From Halichondria panicea (lineage: Eukaryota > Porifera > Demospongiae > Suberitida > Halichondriidae), in contig NC_087380.1 in assembly GCF_963675165.1 (NCBI RefSeq), positions 7,450,517-7,514,516 on the forward strand: 64,000 nt of DNA, in the 5' to 3' direction. Both the position numbers and the translations under genes were made by a program. Positions 7,480-62,924 of this stretch are shown in pieces. A model generated the notes under the pieces. The model was given only the letters and a program-made list of their open reading frames with translations, was not told where the DNA came from and did no database searches. Position 1 is the stretch's first letter, and the number at the start of each line of letters is the position of its first letter.

Positions 7480-13030
<5,551 letters not shown>

Positions 13031-13235: not shown

Positions 13236-19931
<6,696 letters not shown>

Positions 19932-20186: not shown

Positions 20187-23100
20187 ATGTATCTCTATCA
20201 CTTGGCTCCTTGGAAACTTCTATTGCTGGTAAGGCCCAGTAGATAGCTATCAGTTGAGCCTGTAATGTAAAGTTGACATGCATAATTATACTTTGCAGGC
20301 ACATCTTTGCAGTGCATATCATGACACCAGTAATGTGTTGTATCACTGTTGGCCACTGAATGCTGACAGTAGCACTGCAACTGTTGACTGCCAAGGTGAG
20401 TCTGATGGAATATTAGCTAGATAGCAAAACTGGTATGAATGAAAAGAGACGTGCCTGTTGTAAATATTAAAATGCAGGATTGAGTTTGGAATGGGTTGAT
20501 GGAGCTCCTCCAGAGCGGATGAACCAAGGCCAGCTATTTAACGTATCCTATAGAGCAAGGGTGGACCCTGAGTTCTACACACAGTCAATGGCCTTCCCTA
20601 CTCACAAGTGAGTTTACAATCATACTGAGATCATCATAGCCGTACTGCGTATCTGACTGTTAAAAAATTCAATGCAGCGAGACCTTTGTCCGTGAGTTCT
20701 GTGGCCAGATATGCTCTGATAGAGTCGGTGACATCAATCTGAACACTTGCTGTGTTTGGCATGCCAACATCCATACCTGTCATCCCTCACTATCAGTAAA
20801 CACACAATTAATGCTGATTGTTAATTACGATATTTATCACTATAATTATATTTTTGCAGAATCCTCAGTGCAATTCTACACCAAGAGTGTGCGGCCCGTG
20901 GGTGGCGTACGATGGAGTGTTGTCCACTCACACGCTTTCACAATATGGACCACTTAACCGGACATTTACAAGCGTGAATGTTCATGTTGACTTTGAGGGA
21001 GTGAATGTAATCATAGCTCATCTCAAAATCGGGAATATCCAGCTGGTTCTAGGACAGGAGATCCTGATAATGTCATCTAGAGGTCAGCTATGGTATTGTG
21101 TTTGCAATCAATAAACAGATATTGTGTTGTTAAAAGTGCATGGGTAATGTATATCCGACATTATCGCATGAATGTAATCCATCCAAAGGTAATACAATAC
21201 AATGTCATCTTACGTGTATGTATGCAGAGTGTGGGGATGGTGTGTGTGCCAGTGAAGTGGGAGAGACCTGTGAGACGTGCTCTGTCGACTGTTGTCCTCA
21301 ACAACAGAGCACCATCAACACACAGGGGATCATTGTTGGCATCTTTGTACCTCTTGTTCTACTGTCTTTATCTACCGTTGCCATAGTTGCTGTGAGCGAG
21401 ATTATATATTTGCAATAATTATACAGTTTAATATGCAGGAAGTAAGTAATAATTACTCCATATGATTTGATATTGTTTTGCAGCTCTACTATGTGCACAA
21501 ACGGAAGATGTTTTTCGATGAGAGTTGGATTATCAGTTACGATCGTTTACAACACAGGGGACCAAATCACGCCCACTCTAAGAATAGCGGGGGCAGGCAC
21601 ATGTCATTGGAGCCGACGAGGAAACTATCACTAGAGAGTGCCAACGCAAGAACTTTGTATGACTTTAATATCTCACCAACAACATTTACAGATATTGGAA
21701 TCCAGTAAGTCCTTCAGATTATATATAGCCTTGTAATCTGTGATCATGTGACCTACATCATTGTGCAGCGAGGGTCAAGTGGTTGCTATTAAAATGATAC
21801 GCAGACGAAGCATTGCACTGACCAGCAATGTTCGGAAAGAGGTGTTGCAAATACGGTAATTATTTATTAAAAATCACATTATTTATTTATTGACCCTGTA
21901 TTAATTTGGTTGTAGAGTACTGGATCATCCCAATATATGCAAGTTTGTTGGAGCTACGTTGGGCGACCCAACAAAGCAAGCCATAGTAACAGAGTATTGC
22001 CCTAAGGGTAGCTTACGTGACGTGCTCATTAATAAAGACATTTCACTAAATTGGGGATTTCGATTTTCCTTTATGTCTGATATTGCACGAGCCATGTCGT
22101 ATCTCCACCAAAAGAGGATATATCACACAAGACTCACTTCAAACAACTGTCTCATCGACAATCGCTGGACTGTGAAGATCACAGGTAATTTAATTAGCAG
22201 AAAAAAAACAAATTGTTCACATGTGTATATTTCAGATTTTGGATTACCTACCCTCCGATCAACTGAAGATACGCTTGGTCATAACAAGAGCGGGTCGCTA
22301 AGTAGCCTGTACCGACTAAAGAGGAGGACTGCAAGTACAGAGTATCTTAGTCCCTATTTCCCGAATCAGACGCTACGTATTTATCAGCCACCAGAGATAA
22401 AAGACGATCCATTAGACGCACTTGTTCCTCGGCCAACAACAGATGTGTACAGGTGCCGTGATAACATTCTAATTCTGCAATTGATGTACGTTTGATTGCT
22501 TCTAACTTTTCTTGCAGTTTTGGAGTTCTACTAGTTGAAGTGGCAACAAGAATTGACCTCTATACTGTAAGCTGTGTGCTCACATAATATTTATGCATTC
22601 TGGCAATATGCCCCCCCCCCCCTTGTACACAGATGGATGAGTCAAAGTTGGGCTCCAACTTCAAGCCAGTGATTCGACTCTCGGACCTAACAAGCTCCGA
22701 GGCACCTTGTCCCTGCCCTCTGGACTATCTTGATGTGAGATAGCTGCCGTGCATAATATTGTGTAGTGTCTCTAAGTTCTCGTTTGATTTTCATAATTTC
22801 TACAGCTCATAAAGAGATGCTGGTATCAGCCTGCTCTTCGAAGACCAACCTTTGAGCTTGTTAAGAAAACTCTCACTCAGATCAACCCACACAAGGAGAA
22901 TCCAGTGGACATGATGATGGCTATGGTAGGTATCCTAGCTCTCTTATAGTCTACGTACCCATGGCTATGGTAGGTATCCTAGCTCTCTTACAGTCTACGT
23001 ACCCATGGCTATGGTAGGTATCCTAGCTCTCTTATAGTCTACGTACCCATGGCTATGGTCGGTATCCTAGCTCTCTTATAGTCTACGTACCCTGTTCTCT

Positions 23101-28118: not shown

Positions 28119-28995
28119 CCCACTCCCACCACACACACACCACCCACCACTCACACACACACACCCACCCCCACCACACACACACCACCCACATACCAGA
28201 AAGAAGAAGAAGAACAAGGCAAAGGAGTTCATTGAGAAGCTGGAGGGTCTGGAGGAGAGGTCATCAGGTGATGCGGGGAGGAGTGGAGGGTCGACTGAGG
28301 CCAATGGTGGTGATGAGAGGACCAAGGCAGAGCTAGCATTCGAGAAGGTCCAGGAAAAGAGAGTGAGTGTGTGTGGTTACTGTAGGGATTATCTATACAT
28401 GTGGTTACTGTAGGGATTATCTATACATGTGGTTACTGTAGGGATTATCTATACATGTGGTTACTGTAGGGATTATCTATACATGTGGTTACTGTAGGGA
28501 TTATCTATACATGTGGTTACTGTAGGGATTATCTATACATGTGGTTACTGTAGGGATTATCTATACATGTGGTTACTGTAGGGATTATCTATACATGTGG
28601 TTACTGTAGGGATTATCTATACATGTGGTTACTGTAGGGATTATCTGTACATGTGGTTACTGTAGGGATTATCTATACATGTGGTTATTGCAGAAAGCCG
28701 AACGTATTCTCAAGAAAGCGAGGAAGACACACAAGCAAAGAGTGGAGGTGAGGAACTAGGGGAATACCTTGTGGTTATGTGTAGGGTATGGGGTATGTGG
28801 TATAAGTAAGTATGTGTACAGTATAACTGTTGTTCATTTCAGTGAGCCTGAGTTCCTATCATAGTATTACCAGTCTGTGCTCTTGTTGCTCCAATGGTTG
28901 ATATACTGTTTTGTTTTATTGTACAGGAGTTCAACAGTCACTTGGACACACTCACAGAACATTTCGACATCCCTAAAGTCAGCTGGACCAAGTGA
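27980..28995 (+). CDS. FAM32A: FAM32A
   Basis: Exons 27980-28071, 28200-28362, 28694-28747 and 28927-28995 give 378 nt, 125 aa (human FAM32A is 112). Seen: SLKLKGSA near the start, a lysine run (KKKKNKAKE), AFEKVQEKR, and the highly conserved tail ERILKKARKTHKQRVEEFN and DTLTEHFDIPKVSWTK. FAM32A is a small nuclear protein; in human spliceosome structures it supports the catalytic step of exon ligation. The start is the ATG that begins the conserved reading frame. A 28-bp minisatellite fills intron 2 and supplies its acceptor. Confidence 0.95.
28373..28693 (+). repeat. 28-bp minisatellite, 11 copies plus a partial copy that is the splice acceptor
   Basis: Units begin GTGGTTACTGTAGGGATTAT. After eleven near-identical copies a twelfth, partial copy reads GTGGTTATTGCAG and is the FAM32A intron 2 acceptor. 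Each complete copy contains the decoy acceptor TTACTGTAG. Confidence 0.92.
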
Positions 28996-33995: not shown

Positions 33996-36900
33996 ATGTC
34001 TTATCCGTCTGCGCCGCCGCAGTTTGGAGGGCAGGCTCCCCCAGGGACCTACCCAGCCCCCACTTACCCTCAGCAACCCTCTACTGGACCTCCTCCCCCC
34101 TACCAAGTGTACCCAACAGGACCAGCAGCTGCTCTGCCCTCTAAAGAGCCCTTTGGCAGTCCGGCACCAACACAGCCTCCTTATCAGCATCCCGGGTCTG
34201 CATATGCACCACCACAGCCTGGATATCAACCACAACAGCCTGGCTATTCGTCTGGGTACCAACCACCACCACAACCTGGATACCAACCACCCGGGTACGG
34301 ATACCAACCACCTCAGCCTGGATATCAACCACCACAACCTGGATATCAACCACCACAACCTGGGTATCAACCACCACAACCTGGGTACGGCTACCAACCA
34401 CCCCCGCAGCCCCCAGTGTCTCAACCACAAGGATACGGGGTAAATGCCACTAGTTGGGACAACACACACACACACACACTCATACTAGACACCTCATGCT
34501 TCTTTGCACAATTCAGGCCCAGCAAATCTCTGCTCAGATGACAGGAATGAGCCTACAGCAGCAGCCAAAAGAATCTTGTGGTGTGGTGGTAAGCAACCCA
34601 TCTGGTGTGTACAGTGTATACATAGTTTCTCTCTTCCCTCTCCCTAGAGTGGTTTTGCTGAGGGAAACGTGATCATACTCAAGTCCTGTGCCAGTGGCAA
34701 GACTCTCAGGATCCTTGCAGATGGGACAGTAAACGGTCAAGGCGGTCACGGACAGCTTGCTCAGTTCAAAGTTCATGTGAGACGCCCAGGAGTGGTGTCT
34801 CTACAGAATGTACAGAGTCCCGACTACTGGCTGGCCATATTCCAGGGTAACACCATTGGAACGGTGAGGAAAGAGTAGACGCTTTTATTGCACAAGTACA
34901 CGTAGTATATACATTACCAACATTGACCTAGCGTTTATAAATAAAGCATCTTTGAACGGCTATAACTCTAGTTATTTTCTGGTAGCTTAGAGATAGGCCT
35001 TTCAGATGATGTGTTAAAACCAAAAGTCTATTTTTGGCCTGTTTTTGACAAAACACCACGGGCCATATTTGTTTTGAGCTGAACGGGCTTAAACGTAATA
35101 CATGCGCTAACTTTTCTGTAATTTTCTGTTTTTGTTTTTACAGGGGACTGGAGATCCTTACTGTGACCTCATCGTTAATGACGTCGGTAAGGTTTAGACT
35201 AGCTACCGTTAGTTCTGATTCAGGTCATCATAGCTATTCATTTCTTGCACATGCATGTACGAGCCCTAGTTGAACTATTAATACAAGCACTTGTATATAA
35301 ACATATGATGATTATACCAAGACCACTAAACTTTTGTGTATCAGAATAATTAATTGGTTCGTTTGTCTCCAACAGATGGGAAGTTTGCTTGTCTTGAGTC
35401 TGTGATGACCCCAGGGCAGTATGTTGGTGTACTCCCCTCTGGCCAGGTCAAGCCAGCCACACAAACCAAGACTGGACAACACGGACGATTCATTGTCAAA
35501 GTTCAAAAGGATGCAGCTTCTAGTGGAATGGAGGTGTGGTCAAAACCTTAGACGTAACAATTATTCGTAGAATCTCTCAATGCACTAGCACGATAAGATC
35601 ACAATGACAGTATATACACTTGTGTTGTTTTATGTGTTATACATTGATATTGACAATTTATGGACATGACATGCTGAAATGTCCATGCCAATTCCCTAGG
35701 CAAGGAAACGTTTTTTACCTTGCTACAAGGTTGTTTTTCATCAAGAATTTTTCACTGTGGCAGTAAGCCTTTCTTTTATGTACTAGAGCTGTTCACTGAG
35801 TCTGTACACTAGCATGTTCCACTACACTCCATACCACAGACAATCTTTGCTGATGGCAATGTAGTGATTCTGCGTTCGTGTGCTTCAAACAAGCATCTGG
35901 TGATCAATACAGCTGGTGGTGTGCAAGGTAATGGTGGCAGGGGAGTAACGACACAGTTCAAAGTTCATGTGAGACGCCCTGGGGTGGTAGCTCTACAGAG
36001 TGTACACAAGCCTGTATACTGGCTGGCCATTCATCAGGGGAACACCATCGGAACAGTGAGTGCAGAATGTATAGCCACATATGTAACATTGTAAGGCTGT
36101 AATAACATCAACCCCTCCATAGGCGTTCAGTCTGCATGTAGCAGCTTTATACTGCTTGTCAAATGTTTTTTCTTGCTGTAGGGGAAGGGTGGTTTGTACT
36201 GCGACTTTGAGCTGAAGGAAGTTGGTGAGCTCACAGATAATATATACATAATAGCTATACGTCACTGTACATGTATCTACGTACATGCAATATTCTTACA
36301 GAGCAAGTAAGCCAGCTGTATTTTAGAACACCCTTTTTAAATTTAGCCATTTCCTACACATGATATCCTAAATACTAGCAATAATTATAGTCAGCCTGTT
36401 CCAGTTCTCCACTAATATTTACAGCCATTTCCCAGTTATATAATTTCCTTCATTGTATATGCTCTCCTGCAGAGGGTCAGTATGTGTGCCTGGAGTCTGT
36501 CATGCACCCTGGCGAGCACGTTGGTATCCTCCCCAATGGCAGTGTTAAACCTCCCACCCAAACTGGGAAGGGACCACACGGAAGGTTCACACCCTCAGTG
36601 CACCTTGCCTCTAGGAAGCAGCTAGCCTCGATCCCAGGCCGCACTTCACTGCTGGTGAAGGAGGCTAGGAAGCAGCAGAAGCCGAAGCAACCAGACAATA
36701 GGGCCTTGATTATGGTGTGTTCATTGTTGTCTCTTCTGCTAGTATATAATAATGCATAAACATGCCTGGAGGAATGTGCATGTGTAGTTTTCATTAACCT
36801 TAATCTCAAATACTATGTTGTACAGTAGTGTGCTTTCAGTGGCTAGCTCTCTCCCTGCATTTCCACTTTATTGGGCCGTGTAGTTTTCATCAAATACAAT

Positions 36901-37974
36901 GTTGTACAGTAATGTGCTTCCAGTGATTCATTCATGCTAGCTCTCTCCCTGCATTTCCACTTTATTGGGCCTTGAGAACCTATAATTATGATTATGCATG
37001 CTTTCTCATTTTGTACATACTTTTTTCATGTTGTTGTTGGCTACGTGTGCGAGGTGTACAAAGCTTGTTTTCTTTAATGCAGAATATGTTCAGCCAAGGC
37101 AACGTGGTGATTCTCCAATCCAAAGCCAGCAAGAAGTCCCTGAGGATTAATGATGGTGACGTTGAGGGTAATGGTGGCAGGGGAGAGTTGGCACAGTTCA
37201 GAGTTCATGTGAAACGCCCTGGAGTGGTGGCTCTACAGAATGTACACGAGTCTTATAACTGGCTAGCTATATTCCAAGAACAGACCATTGGAACGGTGCG
37301 TTACACAGTTACACATACATAGGCAAATGTCTAGTTCCTATGATATTCATTTTGTCAAAGCATTTTTTTTAAGTATGTTTGATTTCTCCCATTACTTCAC
37401 TGCAGGGCAAGGGTGGGGCCTTCTGTGAGTTCAACTTGACAGTAGTAGGTGGGTGAGAGCTAGTGTGCTGTTGCATGGTGGTCATGTGCACACTCGGCTG
37501 TTTAGTCATCATTCAGTAGTACATATGCTTCAGATCTTATAATCTAGTCATTTCCAGACAATCATATAACTTTGTTTGATGCAGGAATAGTGCATATACG
37601 TAAATGTGTTATGTAATTATTTACACACCATTCCCTCTTCCCTCCCTCCTCATACACACCATTCCCTCTTCCCTCCCTCCTCATACACACCATTCCCTCT
37701 TCCCTCCCTCCTCATACACACCATTCCCTCTTCCCTCCCTCCTCATACACACCATTCCCTCTTCCCTCCCTCCTCACACACCATTCCCTCTTCCCTCCCT
37801 CCTCACACCATTCCCTCTTCCCTCCCTCCTCATACAGATGGCAGCTTTGTTTGTCTGGAGTCAGTGGCGTGCCCCGGCCAGTATGTTGGTATCAAGCCTG
37901 ATGGATCAGTGAAGCTACCTAACCAAACCAAGACTGGCCCTCATGGCAGGTTCATCCCCTCTCTGCATATATAG
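33996..37974 (+). CDS. Pro/Tyr-rich protein with three FGF-like beta-trefoil modules (gene A)
   Basis: Eleven exons: 33996-34439, 34517-34588, 34648-34863, 35144-35186, 35376-35533, 35840-36055, 36182-36224, 36473-36714, 37083-37295, 37406-37448, 37838-37974 (1827 nt, 608 aa). Residues 1-172 are disordered, with tandem QPPQPGYQ units and no signal peptide. Three modules follow (~173-311, 312-478, 479-608), each made of exons of 213-216, 43 and 137-242 nt. Each module reads GNVVIL..LRI..DG..G..A.F.VH..RPGVV.LQ.V....WLAI, then C.F....G.F.C.ES, then QYVGI.PDG..K..TKTGPHGRF. The spacing matches the beta-trefoil of fibroblast growth factors (LRI..DG.VDG, YVA.K..G..K.G.KTGP). Fascin-like trefoils are the alternative. 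Function unknown; it is probably cytosolic or non-classically secreted. Confidence 0.75.
34950..35115. repeat. Palindromic interspersed element, partial copy
   Basis: AAGCATCTTTGAACGGCTAT at the left, with the family's CTTAGAGATAGGCCTTTCAG core, in a gene A intron. The right arm is missing or diverged. Confidence 0.55.
36613..36675 (+). repeat. Exonic 54-bp insertion with inverted ends and 9-bp direct repeats
   Basis: Within gene A exon 8, AGGAAGCAG occurs at 36613-36621 and again at 36667-36675, 54 bp apart. Between them the sequence starts CTAGCCTC and ends GAGGCTAG. The related copy at 38178 lacks the insert. It adds 18 codons in frame. Confidence 0.75.
37624..37837 (+). repeat. 30-bp minisatellite, about 7 copies, ending in a splice acceptor
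   Basis: Units of CACACCATTCCCTCTTCCCT.. plus CCCTCCTCATA run to CCTCCTCATACAG, the acceptor of the last gene A exon. The duplicated pseudo-module has a single unit at 39213-39246, so the array expanded or shrank after that duplication. Confidence 0.9.
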
Positions 37975-42438: not shown

Positions 42439-45400
42439 GGTCGCTTCGTAGCCCTGGAGAGTGTGAGCACTCCTGGACAGTATGTGGGTATCCTCCCTGA
42501 TGGTTGTGTCAAACCACCTGATCAGACACGCACTGGAAAACACGGTCGCTTTGTAGTCACGGTGCATGTTCGTGTAAGTACAGCCAGCCCCTGTACCAAT
42601 ACTATCCTCGTTCTCGGCCCAACTTGTCTCTATTGTAACGAAGAGTGTTTTAATCGGCCTGGGAACGAGGCTAATACTCAATGCTCTGGGTATAATAATT
42701 ATAAGGCTTTGGCTATTGTGTCATGTTCATGCTTTCATTGTTCTATCTAATCCAAATCATATTTCTAATTTATGCAATGTTACTGCACTGCTCTCCCTCC
42801 AGGCTGGCCCGGCCCCTCAGGCCCAGCCGTCGCCCCCGCAGCCTCACTACCCACCTCCGGCTCAGCAGGCCCAACCGTCCCCCCCGCAGCCTCACTACCC
42901 ACCTCCGGCTCAGCAGGGACCACCCCCAGCCCAGGTAACTACATAACAGAGCCTCTCCTAGTAACTAGCCTCCAGGCTTGCCAACAAACGATAGATTTTC
43001 AATTGATCCCCCCCCCACACACACACAGTACCCTGTGCCTGGGTACCCCCCACCTCAGCAATTGCCCCCCCCCCCCCACTCACACACACAGTACCCTGTG
43101 CCTGGGTACCCCCCATCTCAGCAATTGACCCCCCCCCACACACACACACACAGTACCCTGTGCCTGGGTACCCCCCACCTCAGCAACAGCCAGCAGGCTA
43201 CCCCCCACCACAAGCTGGGTACCCCCCACAGCAACAACAGCCCCCTCCCGAGCACCAGCTACCGTATGGATACAAAGTGACGGATGCCTTCCAGGCTGGC
43301 AACGTTGTTCAGCTCATATCCCGGCCGACAGGCCTACCACTTCAAGTGCTTCGTGGATTCTTCACTTCTACTGCAGGACAACTTGGCACCACTGACAGTG
43401 AGTGGTTCTCTATCAGTTGCTACTAGAGTAGTCTCAACTTTGCCAACTCCAGTACTCTCAAAATGAAGGAGACCTTAGCGTTAAATCTTTGAATGGCCAT
43501 AACTTAAGTTGCGTTGATTCAATAACGTTAATTTTAAGATTTTTTGAACGCTTAGAAAGATACCTTTCAAATGGTGTCATCAAAGTTCATATTTAAGAGA
43601 TAAAAGTATTTGCCAATTTGGCCATAACCATGGATAATAATAGCCCATGGTCCAAGACCAAAAAATGACAAATTACGGCCCATTCCAAATTTGAGATTTG
43701 AGCATGCGATCTGAACGAGCTCCTTCTAAGCATTCATAATATCATAAAATCGTTGAATTTGGACCATCAGAACTCTAGTTACAGAGCCAACTCTAGTGTT
43801 CTGTTTTTAACCACCCCTCCCAGGTCAATGGAATGTCGTTGTGCCCCAAGGCTGTGCCCCTGGAGTGTTCATGCTACATAATGTCAAGTGGCCTGGAATG
43901 TACCTTGCTGTGAAGAAGGGGAAAGTTCACAATGTGAGTCGTATAAAAAATGAAGCACACTCGCCAGTTAGCCCTGCCCATTTCGTCCTTTGACCTTTCC
44001 AACAGCTAAATTAAGGGCAGCGATAATCTGTTTCCATAAGTCATTATATAGCTGGATGGAAACTAAAGTTACTTCATTAATTATGCAAAAAGACTGAGGT
44101 ACATGTATAATCCTTCTAGCTGAAGTTTTGTCGATACTTGCTAATGACGTATAATTACTAGTTTCCTTGTCAAAAGGCTGTTTTAAATATCTCCCTCCCG
44201 TGTATCTGTTTCTCAGGGCAACGGTGGACCATTCTGCCATTTTGTAGCGCGCACTCATCCGGACAACTATGTTAGCTTTCTATCAGTGGCCAACTCCAAC
44301 CAATATCTAGCGTTTGCTGAGCATGGCAACGCTGTCGCCACTAACAGCGTGGCAGAGTCTGACATCCGCACTCAGTTCTACATCAGGATTAATGTAAATA
44401 TCTCCTATTGTACAGTTCAGTTAATTGTCTACAGTATGCACACTTTAGTAGCCCAATGTGTAATATTTTGTGTGAACATCTTGAATTATTTCTCCCCCTT
44501 CAGAAAATGAGACACGGTCACTCATCCACCATCAGCACTCCCTTTGGAAGGGCCTCCCTGGCAGTAAGTACACAACACTGCTGCAAGAGTTAGTATCATA
44601 TAACATCTATGCACACGCTGCGATTTTGTAAAAGTCTTGCTATTATTGTCACCTACAGTACACAGGTTGACCTCTTGTAATTATTTGCTTGTAATTTTGA
44701 CAAAAGCAAAGGCCCAATATATTCAGCCTATTTGGGTAGCTCTGTTTAAGGGCCTGCAATTTGTGTTCTGATTGTCCAATTGTCCAACTTTGTACTGCCC
44801 TGCCCTACCCTGATATATAATTTTCCCTTTAACCCCTACAGAACCTGATATATAATTTCCCCTTTAACCCCTATACAGAACCAGCTGACGGATGGCTGTG
44901 TAGTCCAGCTCTACCTCAAGTCCAACAACTTTTATCTGTCGATCAATGCTGCTGGAATTTTGCAGAATATTGTCAACGGGAACGACAAACACAGTACGTT
45001 GCTCAGTTGTCTCAAGCACATTACGTATAATACCGTATAGCGCGAAATTTTCGAGGGGCTTAATTTTCGCGGATTTCGTGGGTTAGAATCCTACACGAAA
45101 ATTAAGTCCACGAAAATTGAATTACCTGCTATAGCATGCATAGATTTAAAGGCGTGGCTTCCGGTAAGCAGTCATTCCGCGAACATTGTGCAACGAAATA
45201 GCTTTTAGAGGCTAATCCACGAAATATAAGTGCCTCGAAAATTTCGCGCTATACGGTAATAGCACCTAAAACTATAAAGTGATATGCCTTTCTCTCCCTC
45301 CCAGCATTCTTCAAGGTATCTGATCGTGGGATGGGCATATACTCACTGCATGCTTACAAGTACCCAGGGTACAGAGTTCGGATGCAGAATGGAGCTCTCG

Positions 45401-50013: not shown

Positions 50014-53000
50014 ATGAGTGGTATCAAGATAAAGACATTACAACAGAAGACCTTCGAGGTTGACATTGAGCACACAGAAACAGTGAGATACTATTAAACT
50101 ATCATTTTCAGTGTCTAGTTGTGATGTACGTGCACGCGTATATAAGTTTTAAAACTATGAATCCAACATTTTGTATGTACTGAATACCATCTCCACCTGT
50201 TATTATAATTATTGCGCAAACCATTCAGTAACTATGGAATTATTGATATCATTTTTGAATTTGCGTTTGTATTAAGCTAGATTGAATTCAACTGTGCACA
50301 CTAGCTAGATAATAATTATCGCGTGTAGTCTTCATTAATAATAATATTTTGACGCTTGCAGGTGAGAGCTCTCAAGGAGAAGATCGAGGAAGATAAGGGA
50401 ATGGAGTTCCAAGCCGATTTATTAAAGCTTATATATGCTGGTGAGAGACTTTAGTTACTAGGGGTCTACATGATTTATAGGTTGTATAGATAAGGTCTAT
50501 TGAGGTTAAATTAGTGACTATCAAAATCTGGGTTATCTCTGCCTCTGTAGCTCAGTGGTTAGAGCACTGGTCTTGTAAACCAGGGGTCGAGAGTTCAAAT
50601 CTCTCCAGGGGCTTCTTTTTTTGCTCCTGTACACAAGTTCCAGTTCTCAACATGTATGTTACGAAATTTATTTGCAGGAAAAATACTGGAGGACAGCCAA
50701 CCATTGTCTAAGTATAAAATACAACCGAGTGGCTTTGTCGTTGTCATGGTGAGCAAGTCTCGTCCCCCTCCAAAACCAGCAGCAGAAGAGGTATTCATAA
50801 TATTATAGCTTTACAGGAAATCCCGTAGATTATATTTCCTTGTGATTTTCATCAACAACAATAATTATTGTGGTTGCATTTTGGATTCTCTTTTAGTTTT
50901 AACACTAGTAAGCTACTTTATGTGTTCTCTTTGTGTGTGCAGTCATCTGAAGCCACGACAACCAGCGTAGAAGCATCTACCACAGCACAAGAAACGTATG
51001 TTATATAGAATTTTAAACCATAGTGTGAAATGCATTCTGTAGCTCTAAGAGAGAGGCCTCTTTCATACACACACCACCCACACACACACACACAGGCCCA
51101 CCAGTCAGCAGCCTCCAGAAGCAACGGCCACCACTTCAGAGTCTGAAGGAGGGGTCTCGAGGATGGAAACAAGTGAGGCCACACCCACAGTCACGCCCTC
51201 AGCCCAAGGGTCGGACACCATAGAGAGTAGGAGTGAAGGGTCTCTCCTTCAAGCTGGCTCTACTCTAGGTGAGTGGAGGCTCTGTGTGTGTGTGTGTGTG
51301 TGTGGGGGGGGTGGGGGGGTGTGTGTGTGTGTGTGGGGGGGAGGTTGACAAAATATCACAGCAATGGTCATTTTCAGGAAATAGGAAGTCATAGCCCGTT
51401 CCAAATTTAGGATTTGATCAGTTGAATAGGCTTTTAATCATAAAATCTCTAAATTTGGACCATCAGAATTCTAGTTCACAGTGTTAATATTCTTTATCTT
51501 TGCAGTGACTGGCCCGGACCTGGATGAGGCTACAAGCAACTTGATGGCACTGGGCTATGAGCAAGACCAAGTAATCAGGGCCCTCAATGCAAGCTTCAAC
51601 AACCCGGACAGGGCAGCCGAACTGCTCATGACTGTGAGTGTGGCCTGCCTATTGGGCCTGGTAGACACACATGTGTGAGTGTGGCCTGCCTGTTGGGCCT
51701 GGTAGACACACATGTGTGAGTGCGGCCTGCCTGTTGGGCCTGGTAGACACACATGTGTGAGTGCGGCCTGCCTGTTGGGCCTAATAGACATAGTATAGTA
51801 TGTGTATGGTGTTCGGTTATGATGGGGGAATAACGTGTACATGTGACTGTTTGTATGCTTTGTAACTACATAGTTTATGGTTTAGTGTGTAGATTGTTAT
51901 CTGTATAATCATGCTGTACTCTCTTCCTGTGTTTAGGGTAATGTACCAAACGACCCTATACCCACTGCTCCGGAGGGGATGGAGGAGGAGCCGGGGGAGC
52001 AGCCCTCTAGGGATATCCCCCCTGGCCAACAAGGGGAGGGAGAGTCTGCCGGTGGACCACCGCCAGGTGAGCTAACTGAATACCATAATTATTATACTCA
52101 TTTTTCGTATGGTGAATTTTTGTATTATAAAAAAACTGGGAAATATTAATGTATAGTACGTCACCATCCTGAGCTGTACGCATATTTAGAATACGAAATA
52201 TTAAACTTGTTAGTTGATACGAAAATGTACACTGGTCAACGAAAATTACCCGCTATACAGTAACTATCTTGGTTCTTCAAATTGACAAATGTCACCTTCA
52301 GTGTATTGCACTTAACACTGACTATTATACTATTATACTATTTGCATAACTTGATGCTTTTGTTTATCTAATACAAATACAGCAAATCCTTTTGAGTTTC
52401 TTCAAGACAGACCTCAGTTTCAGCTGCTGCGTACTTTGGTCCAACAGAACCCTGGGTCCTTGCCCAATCTCCTCCAACAGATAGGACAGGCCAATCCACA
52501 GCTCTTGCAGGTATACTGTACATGTCGTGCTCTCAACATAATTATGGTACTGAAATGTTCATAGAGTTCAGCTTGCCCCCCAAAATAACAAATATTTTAC
52601 TCCACTATACGGTGGTAGTGCAAGGAACTCAAATGGTTTTTTTACTTATCTCCCCCTCCCACACACACACACGCACGCCCACACATACACATACACACAC
52701 ACACACGCGCGCGCCCACACATACACACACACACACACACACACAGTTGGTCTCATCTAATCAACAAGCTTTCATTGACATGCTCAACCGTCCCTCACCA
52801 GGCGAGGGGGTAGGGGCAGGTCCAGTGGCGGGAGCGGGGGCGGGGGCTCCCCCTCAAATACCACAGGGGCTTTCCCCTCAAATACCACAGGGGCTTCCCC
52901 CTGGAGCAGTATCCATACAAGTGACGCCAGAGGAGAAGGAAGCCATTGAAAGGGTGAGTTACGTTGATACAGTTACGATAACTGTAAGTGGTGAGTGTTT

Positions 53001-56662: not shown

Positions 56663-62924
<6,262 letters not shown>

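Follow-up and report, generated by a model that had tools for sequence, protein, structure and literature searches.

Splice-site-copying minisatellites in short introns: a probable set of lancelet-type mirages with no significant excess of junction crossings

Minisatellite-like duplications of intron-exon boundaries, called mirages, have been described in lancelets for Adh3, the globins BflGb6 and BflGb9, troponin C, and PGBD5 (PMC3087553, PMC3902484). In these accounts, mirages occur at both 5' and 3' ends, many of their units carry AG/GT sites, and the first repeat of PGBD5 adjoins a 5' splice site; splicing is reported to be regular for Adh3, the globins (by RT-PCR), and troponin C (PMC3087553, PMC3902484). 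A copy number that is unstable between haplotypes counts as a further trait of mirages. A minisatellite in the human gene IFI6 (6-16, G1P3) is described as supplying several donor sites, with its units used as alternative donors (PMC4526556). Tandem duplicates have also been linked to intron gain in fission yeast and potato, the fission yeast intron being described as spanning four 24-bp duplicates (PMC4974935). The literature we searched, mostly in the form of listed records, contained no study testing across a whole genome whether repeat edges coincide with splice sites.

We examined a stretch of 64,000 nucleotides (the window, meaning the whole stretch that was analyzed) from a genome of 131 Mb. 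An earlier note on this DNA had named nine introns, that of RAD23 and eight others, in which the same logic seemed to apply, namely that the repeat unit includes a real donor or acceptor. Each was inspected individually, and TRF returned 64 rows for the window. The real splice dinucleotide is copied in seven of the nine introns (RAD23 included), at three donors (51634, 22926, and 61668) and four acceptors (28693, 43153, 44878, and 17941), while the arrays at 37622-37836 and 9465-9579 do not follow the proposed logic. Outside these introns, the window holds seven wholly exonic arrays (at 8808, 33213, 34208, 34265, 39706, 42818, and 52843) with periods that are all multiples of three, and the array at 34208-34388 encodes PPQPGYQ-like repeats. 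A 335-bp unit is tandemly duplicated (95% matches) within a long predicted intron at 60262-60950.

The three donor arrays share a simple arrangement. In RAD23 (51633-51790, plus strand; 41 bp x 3.9 copies, 96% matches in TRF), the exon ends with CTC ATG ACT and is followed by the GTGAGT donor, which occurs four times, at 51634 (the real site), 51675, 51716, and 51757, with the decoys thus lying at +41, +82, and +123. The unit had been said to begin exactly at GTGAGT; the four donors are indeed present, but the array begins one base upstream, on the last base of the exon, so that its unit copies the donor and one exon base. The intron array of a receptor guanylyl cyclase gene (22917-23092, plus strand; 44 bp x 4.0) copies the donor at 22926 with nine exon bases, and that of a HOOK-like coiled-coil gene (61331-61674, minus strand; 40 bp x 8.6) copies the donor at 61668 with six. 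The assignment of the latter gene comes from a Pfam HOOK match (E 1.2e-8) of 34.6 bits, slightly below the cut-off of 35.

Among the acceptor arrays, that of FAM32A (28372-28687, plus strand; 28 bp x 11.3) fills its intron, the real acceptor of which ends at 28693. Its unit contains a TGTAG acceptor-like site and the array begins 9 bp into the intron, so the acceptor is covered and the donor is not. Two further plus-strand arrays, with junctions taken from the gene models, copy an acceptor together with exon sequence: 43000-43186 (62 bp x 3.0; acceptor ending at 43153, 33 exon bases) and 44809-44882 (35 bp x 2.1; acceptor ending at 44878, four exon bases). The compound array of XPF (ERCC4; 17901-18185, minus strand) has periods of 33, 76, and 109 bp and copies the acceptor at 17941 with about 40 exon bases. 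Of the two exceptions, the pyrimidine-rich array at 37622-37836 (plus strand; 31 bp x 7.1) adjoins an acceptor in an intron that ends at 37837; here the pyrimidine tract is repeated, the AG is not, and no decoy AG exceeded the score limit. The other consists of degenerate repeats of 26-28 bp that run up to the acceptor at 9465-9579 (plus strand; TRF reports 9465-9535) in an oxysterol-binding-protein-like gene (Pfam Oxysterol_BP), where the AG is likewise not repeated and no decoy AG passed the score limit.

Judged from the DNA sequence, these arrays are a new set of mirages, a structure already described in lancelets. As in lancelets, the unit spans the exon-intron boundary (of the window's 18 intronic arrays, six reach at least 1 bp into an exon, and the dinucleotide is copied in seven of the nine named introns), both kinds of boundary are affected (three donor and four acceptor arrays), and the unit lengths, mostly 28-62 bp here, are similar to the 10-72 bp given for Adh3. 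The present case differs in that several mirages lie close together, in 64 kb of a genome of 131 Mb, a size that argues against a lancelet, and in that a single assembly was analyzed and splicing is judged here from protein homology.

All of these comparisons depend on the position of the exon borders. Genes were predicted ab initio with a hidden Markov model self-trained on the sequence, in two versions: model A used all sequence except masked microsatellites, and model B additionally treated minisatellite arrays as neutral. In their final form, both versions returned the nine junctions just as the earlier note had placed them, with model A adding small exons within the arrays at 43000 and 17901. 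An early model without microsatellite masking missed three of the nine (RAD23, 43153, and the whole gene at 61668) and put the RAD23 exon end at 51672, 39 bases later and in frame. We compared the joined exons of four genes with homologous proteins of solved structure. FAM32A aligned gaplessly (E 4e-25), the junction was free of gaps for XPF (E 9e-30) and for the guanylyl cyclase against a natriuretic peptide receptor (E 9e-8), and RAD23 aligned to RAD23B (E 8e-12) with a one-residue gap adjoining the junction. The predicted exon-proximal junction thus fits the homologues in all four genes compared. Outside the window, where the gene models sometimes merged neighboring genes, all six sequences checked against Pfam (from five models) had matches, one of them being a likely merger of two genes.

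To evaluate how often arrays would meet junctions by chance, each array was collapsed to one unit, which was then placed randomly on positions touching an intron, either given the introns that were hit (conditioned null) or without that condition (unconditioned null). The outside sample comprised 290 kb of the 131-Mb genome, taken at fixed places on four contigs. After removal of TRF rows with periods of 9 or less, low-complexity units, or overlaps with other rows, 96 arrays were retained (25 in the window, 71 outside). Of these, 10 lay wholly in exons and 16 between genes, and setting them aside gave 18 intronic arrays in the window and 52 (model B) or 49 (model A) outside. Predicted introns of at least 3 kb were excluded. 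The XPF array, entered as 17946-18185 with a period of 109, was reset to 17901-18185 with a period of 76 in the unconditioned-null and exon-overlap counts only. Two of the outside arrays, at 20780 and 76506 in the block sampled from contig C1, are copies of one segment, and each was counted.

Junction crossing was not significantly enriched in the window or outside. Under the conditioned null, five of the 18 window arrays crossed a junction against 7.3 expected (model A, 8/18 against 9.2), and under the unconditioned null six did so against 5.5 expected (P=0.48; model A, 8/18 against 5.6, P=0.15). Outside, the counts were 4/52 against 8.7 and, with model A, 3/49 against 7.6. The absence of a significant excess follows from the short introns, whose median length in the window after collapsing is 179 bp, relative to units that are mostly 28-62 bp long. 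In three of the named introns, collapsing leaves 43-66 bp for units of 28-44 bp, so that edges close to both ends are nearly forced. The premise that minisatellites placed at random would not repeatedly fall on splice sites is therefore wrong for introns this short, given crossings at chance level in both the window and the 290 kb.

The arrays are probably lancelet-type mirages that arose by local tandem duplications, placed largely at random relative to splice sites in a genome of short introns, and that then survived selection. A unit of 28-62 bp falling into an intron of 43-200 bp would often overlap one of its ends. Where the duplication spans a donor or acceptor, the exon-proximal copy would preserve the exon border and leave the protein unchanged, and the remaining copies would become intron; duplications that alter the exon would be removed, and deep exon overlaps are presumably trimmed by selection. 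The surviving arrays could later expand and homogenize, as any minisatellite does. The periods of wholly exonic arrays were multiples of three in 10 of 10 cases, compared with 20 of 70 intronic arrays, although the gene finder favors such exons; this suggestive contrast fits indiscriminate duplication filtered by selection. In a search of the genome (131 Mb, with simple repeats skipped), the four array-bearing loci searched matched only themselves, which indicates that the arrays probably arose in place and argues against a dispersed element as their source.

The sampled and searched contigs had repeats and expansions of other kinds as well. The two C1 segments (20780-20824 and 76506-76550 of the block) are very similar, lie 56 kb apart, encode near-identical predicted proteins, and carry the same acceptor-abutting repeat; one of the two proteins matches both Arf and the DNA primase large subunit. 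In the same block, a 130-bp duplication (96712-96987) led the gene finder to place a 30-nt exon twice with flanking splice sites, and a 45-bp satellite of about 65 copies (63521-66446) lies between predicted genes. Contig C3 has dozens of close-packed matches to protein kinase domains at about 0.87-2.46 Mb, which looks like a large tandem expansion.

A narrower statistic, the number of arrays with an edge within 10 bp of a junction, was modestly above expectation in the window. With the unconditioned null, seven arrays had such an edge against 2.8 expected (P=0.015), or against 3.6 when deep exon overlap was barred (P=0.05); model A gave nine against 2.9-3.7 (P=0.001-0.005). The P-values of the conditioned null were overall weaker (0.012-0.23): eight arrays against 3.9 (P=0.018) and, with deep overlap barred, 8/17 against 6.1 (P=0.16), and with model A eight against 4.5 (P=0.047) and 7/14 against 5.6 (P=0.23), respectively. 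Outside the window, the excess at the main threshold was not significant (9/52 against 5.6-6.2, P=0.10-0.16; model A, 6/49 against 5.4-5.8), and at a lower TRF threshold the counts were 15/93 against 9.2 with model B (P=0.03) and 12/90 against 9.1 with model A (P=0.17). Pooling the window and the outside sample gave 16/70 against 8.1-9.2 (P=0.006-0.019; model A, 15/67, P=0.01-0.03), an excess that stays nominally significant, although the window had been chosen for the pattern. The comparison of repeat edges with random positions, proposed in the earlier note on a genome-wide scale, returned on the sample used here a modest excess in the window and none that was significant outside at the main threshold.

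This excess is what speaks for a different origin, in which duplication is seeded at the splice sites themselves, for example by R-loops, by transcription or replication stalled at the donor, or by GT-rich or CA-rich sequence beside splice sites. The edge counts in the window (P=0.001-0.23 across gene models and nulls), the pooled counts (P=0.006-0.03), and a cluster in the window of four arrays that carry 1-9 exon bases would all agree with seeding, but crossings show no significant excess, the outside edge excess falls short of significance at the main threshold, and none of the 52 outside arrays carries 1-10 exon bases. Nor did the sequence of the sites favor it. In 268 array-free introns of at least 200 bp, 5-mers from splice sites recurred 15-75 bp into the intron no more often than 5-mers from the interior: the recurrence at donors was 0.108, like that of the intron interior, and at acceptors it was lower, 0.052. 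Donor flanks likewise had no extra microhomology. Seeding, as the earlier note had put it forward, therefore found no support, with crossings at chance level, the pattern absent from the 52 outside arrays, and no 5-mer excess, and we regard it as unlikely.

The pattern of arrays that take in a few exon bases belongs to this window, which was itself picked for looking striking. Between 1 and 10 exon bases are included in 4/18 window arrays and 0/52 outside (Fisher P=0.003, a post hoc test), and exon overlap of any depth (at least 1 bp) occurs in 6/18 and 2/52 (Fisher P=0.003, also post hoc). Intronic arrays with periods of at least 25 are about four times as dense in the window (20.3 per 100 kb) as in the 290 kb outside (5.5). 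Chance placement alone does not explain why the window stands out. Its high minisatellite density may reflect a chromosome-end effect, since contig C4 ends 0.3 Mb away from the window and subtelomeric enrichment of such repeats is described for human (PMC7608644), but the last 1.5 kb of C4 contain no telomere repeat. Contig C1 has TTAGGG repeats at both ends among the matches listed. A further reading, to which we give a small chance of being right, is that the region has a raised rate of short tandem duplications that prefer exon borders, and that its introns carry from two to eight near-equal tandem splice sites, with splicing confined to the exon-proximal one.

Copies of real splice sites are plentiful in the arrays regardless of how they arose. 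Counting only such copies, there are 32 decoys, 13 donors and 19 acceptors, with six of the acceptors in the XPF array. The decoy donors of RAD23 score below the real one (4.2 against 5.3), and its array contains two weaker sites, at +27 and +39, which would keep the frame without a stop. At 61668 in the HOOK-like gene, seven decoy donors have a score identical to that of the real donor, as do two at 22926 in the guanylyl cyclase gene. This equality of scores is one reason to consider that the decoys are used, either to tune expression through a graded set of isoforms that are for the most part unproductive or as small extra exons inside the arrays. Such use would also be in line with the small exons that model A places in the arrays at 43000 and 17901, with the in-frame exon end of the early RAD23 model, and with human IFI6, in which downstream repeat units are reported to serve as donors (PMC4526556). 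The conserved proteins, however, match the exon-proximal site in the four alignments, and 31 of the 32 decoys would change the reading frame or introduce a stop, the exception lying 84 bases upstream of the FAM32A acceptor, where the frame is kept without a stop. The lancelet mirages of Adh and troponin C are likewise said to give no aberrant mRNA (PMC3902484). Because decoy use would mostly give faulty mRNA, the survival of the arrays suggests that such use is rare, and we consider regulatory or exonic use of the decoys very unlikely. The resemblance to IFI6 accordingly lies in a minisatellite offering multiple donors, and the difference in that the units of IFI6 are used as alternative donors whereas homology here supports only the exon-proximal site. 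The suggestion that extra splice sites are tolerated in this genome was supported at the level of sequence and protein, with decoys that equal the real site in score and yet four aligned junctions that fit the exon-proximal one.

The HOOK-like intron (61309-61668) could also be read as having been born by tandem duplication of exonic sequence (the Rogers model), with the array as a relic of intron gain. It measures exactly nine units (360 = 9 x 40), and GTGAGTGG stands at the intron start and again one base into the next exon; together, these features are a weak hint of such a birth. Against it, the two flank copies are out of register by one base, 8-bp flank matches were found in 5 of 641 introns compared with about 1.4 expected for matches of at least 8 bp when flanks were re-paired, and the stretch after the last copy, comprising the last 22 intron bases and the start of the next exon, is no more similar to the unit than chance would give (0.44 of random segments do equally well), so that the intron as a whole is not made of duplicates. 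The RAD23 intron similarly continues for 146 bp past its array and is not wholly duplicated. The cases of intron gain in fission yeast, ATP2A1, and potato RdRp share with these loci the presence of tandem duplicates within or across introns, but theirs are new introns from exonic sequence, whereas the units here are mostly intron sequence in genes for conserved proteins, and the one hint of such an origin, which we judge very improbable, comes from the HOOK-like case.

We conclude that local duplication in short introns, followed by selection, probably accounts for the arrays, and the known range of lancelet-type mirages now takes in an apparently different, compact genome. However striking it is to find repeats on splice sites, such a finding has to be judged against a null that takes short introns into account. 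Tandem sites of equal strength, such as the eight donors of the HOOK-like gene, offer natural material for testing how the spliceosome chooses among identical sites. If the reading of a raised duplication rate with a preference for exon borders were true, position alone, and not site strength, would decide splicing in these introns.
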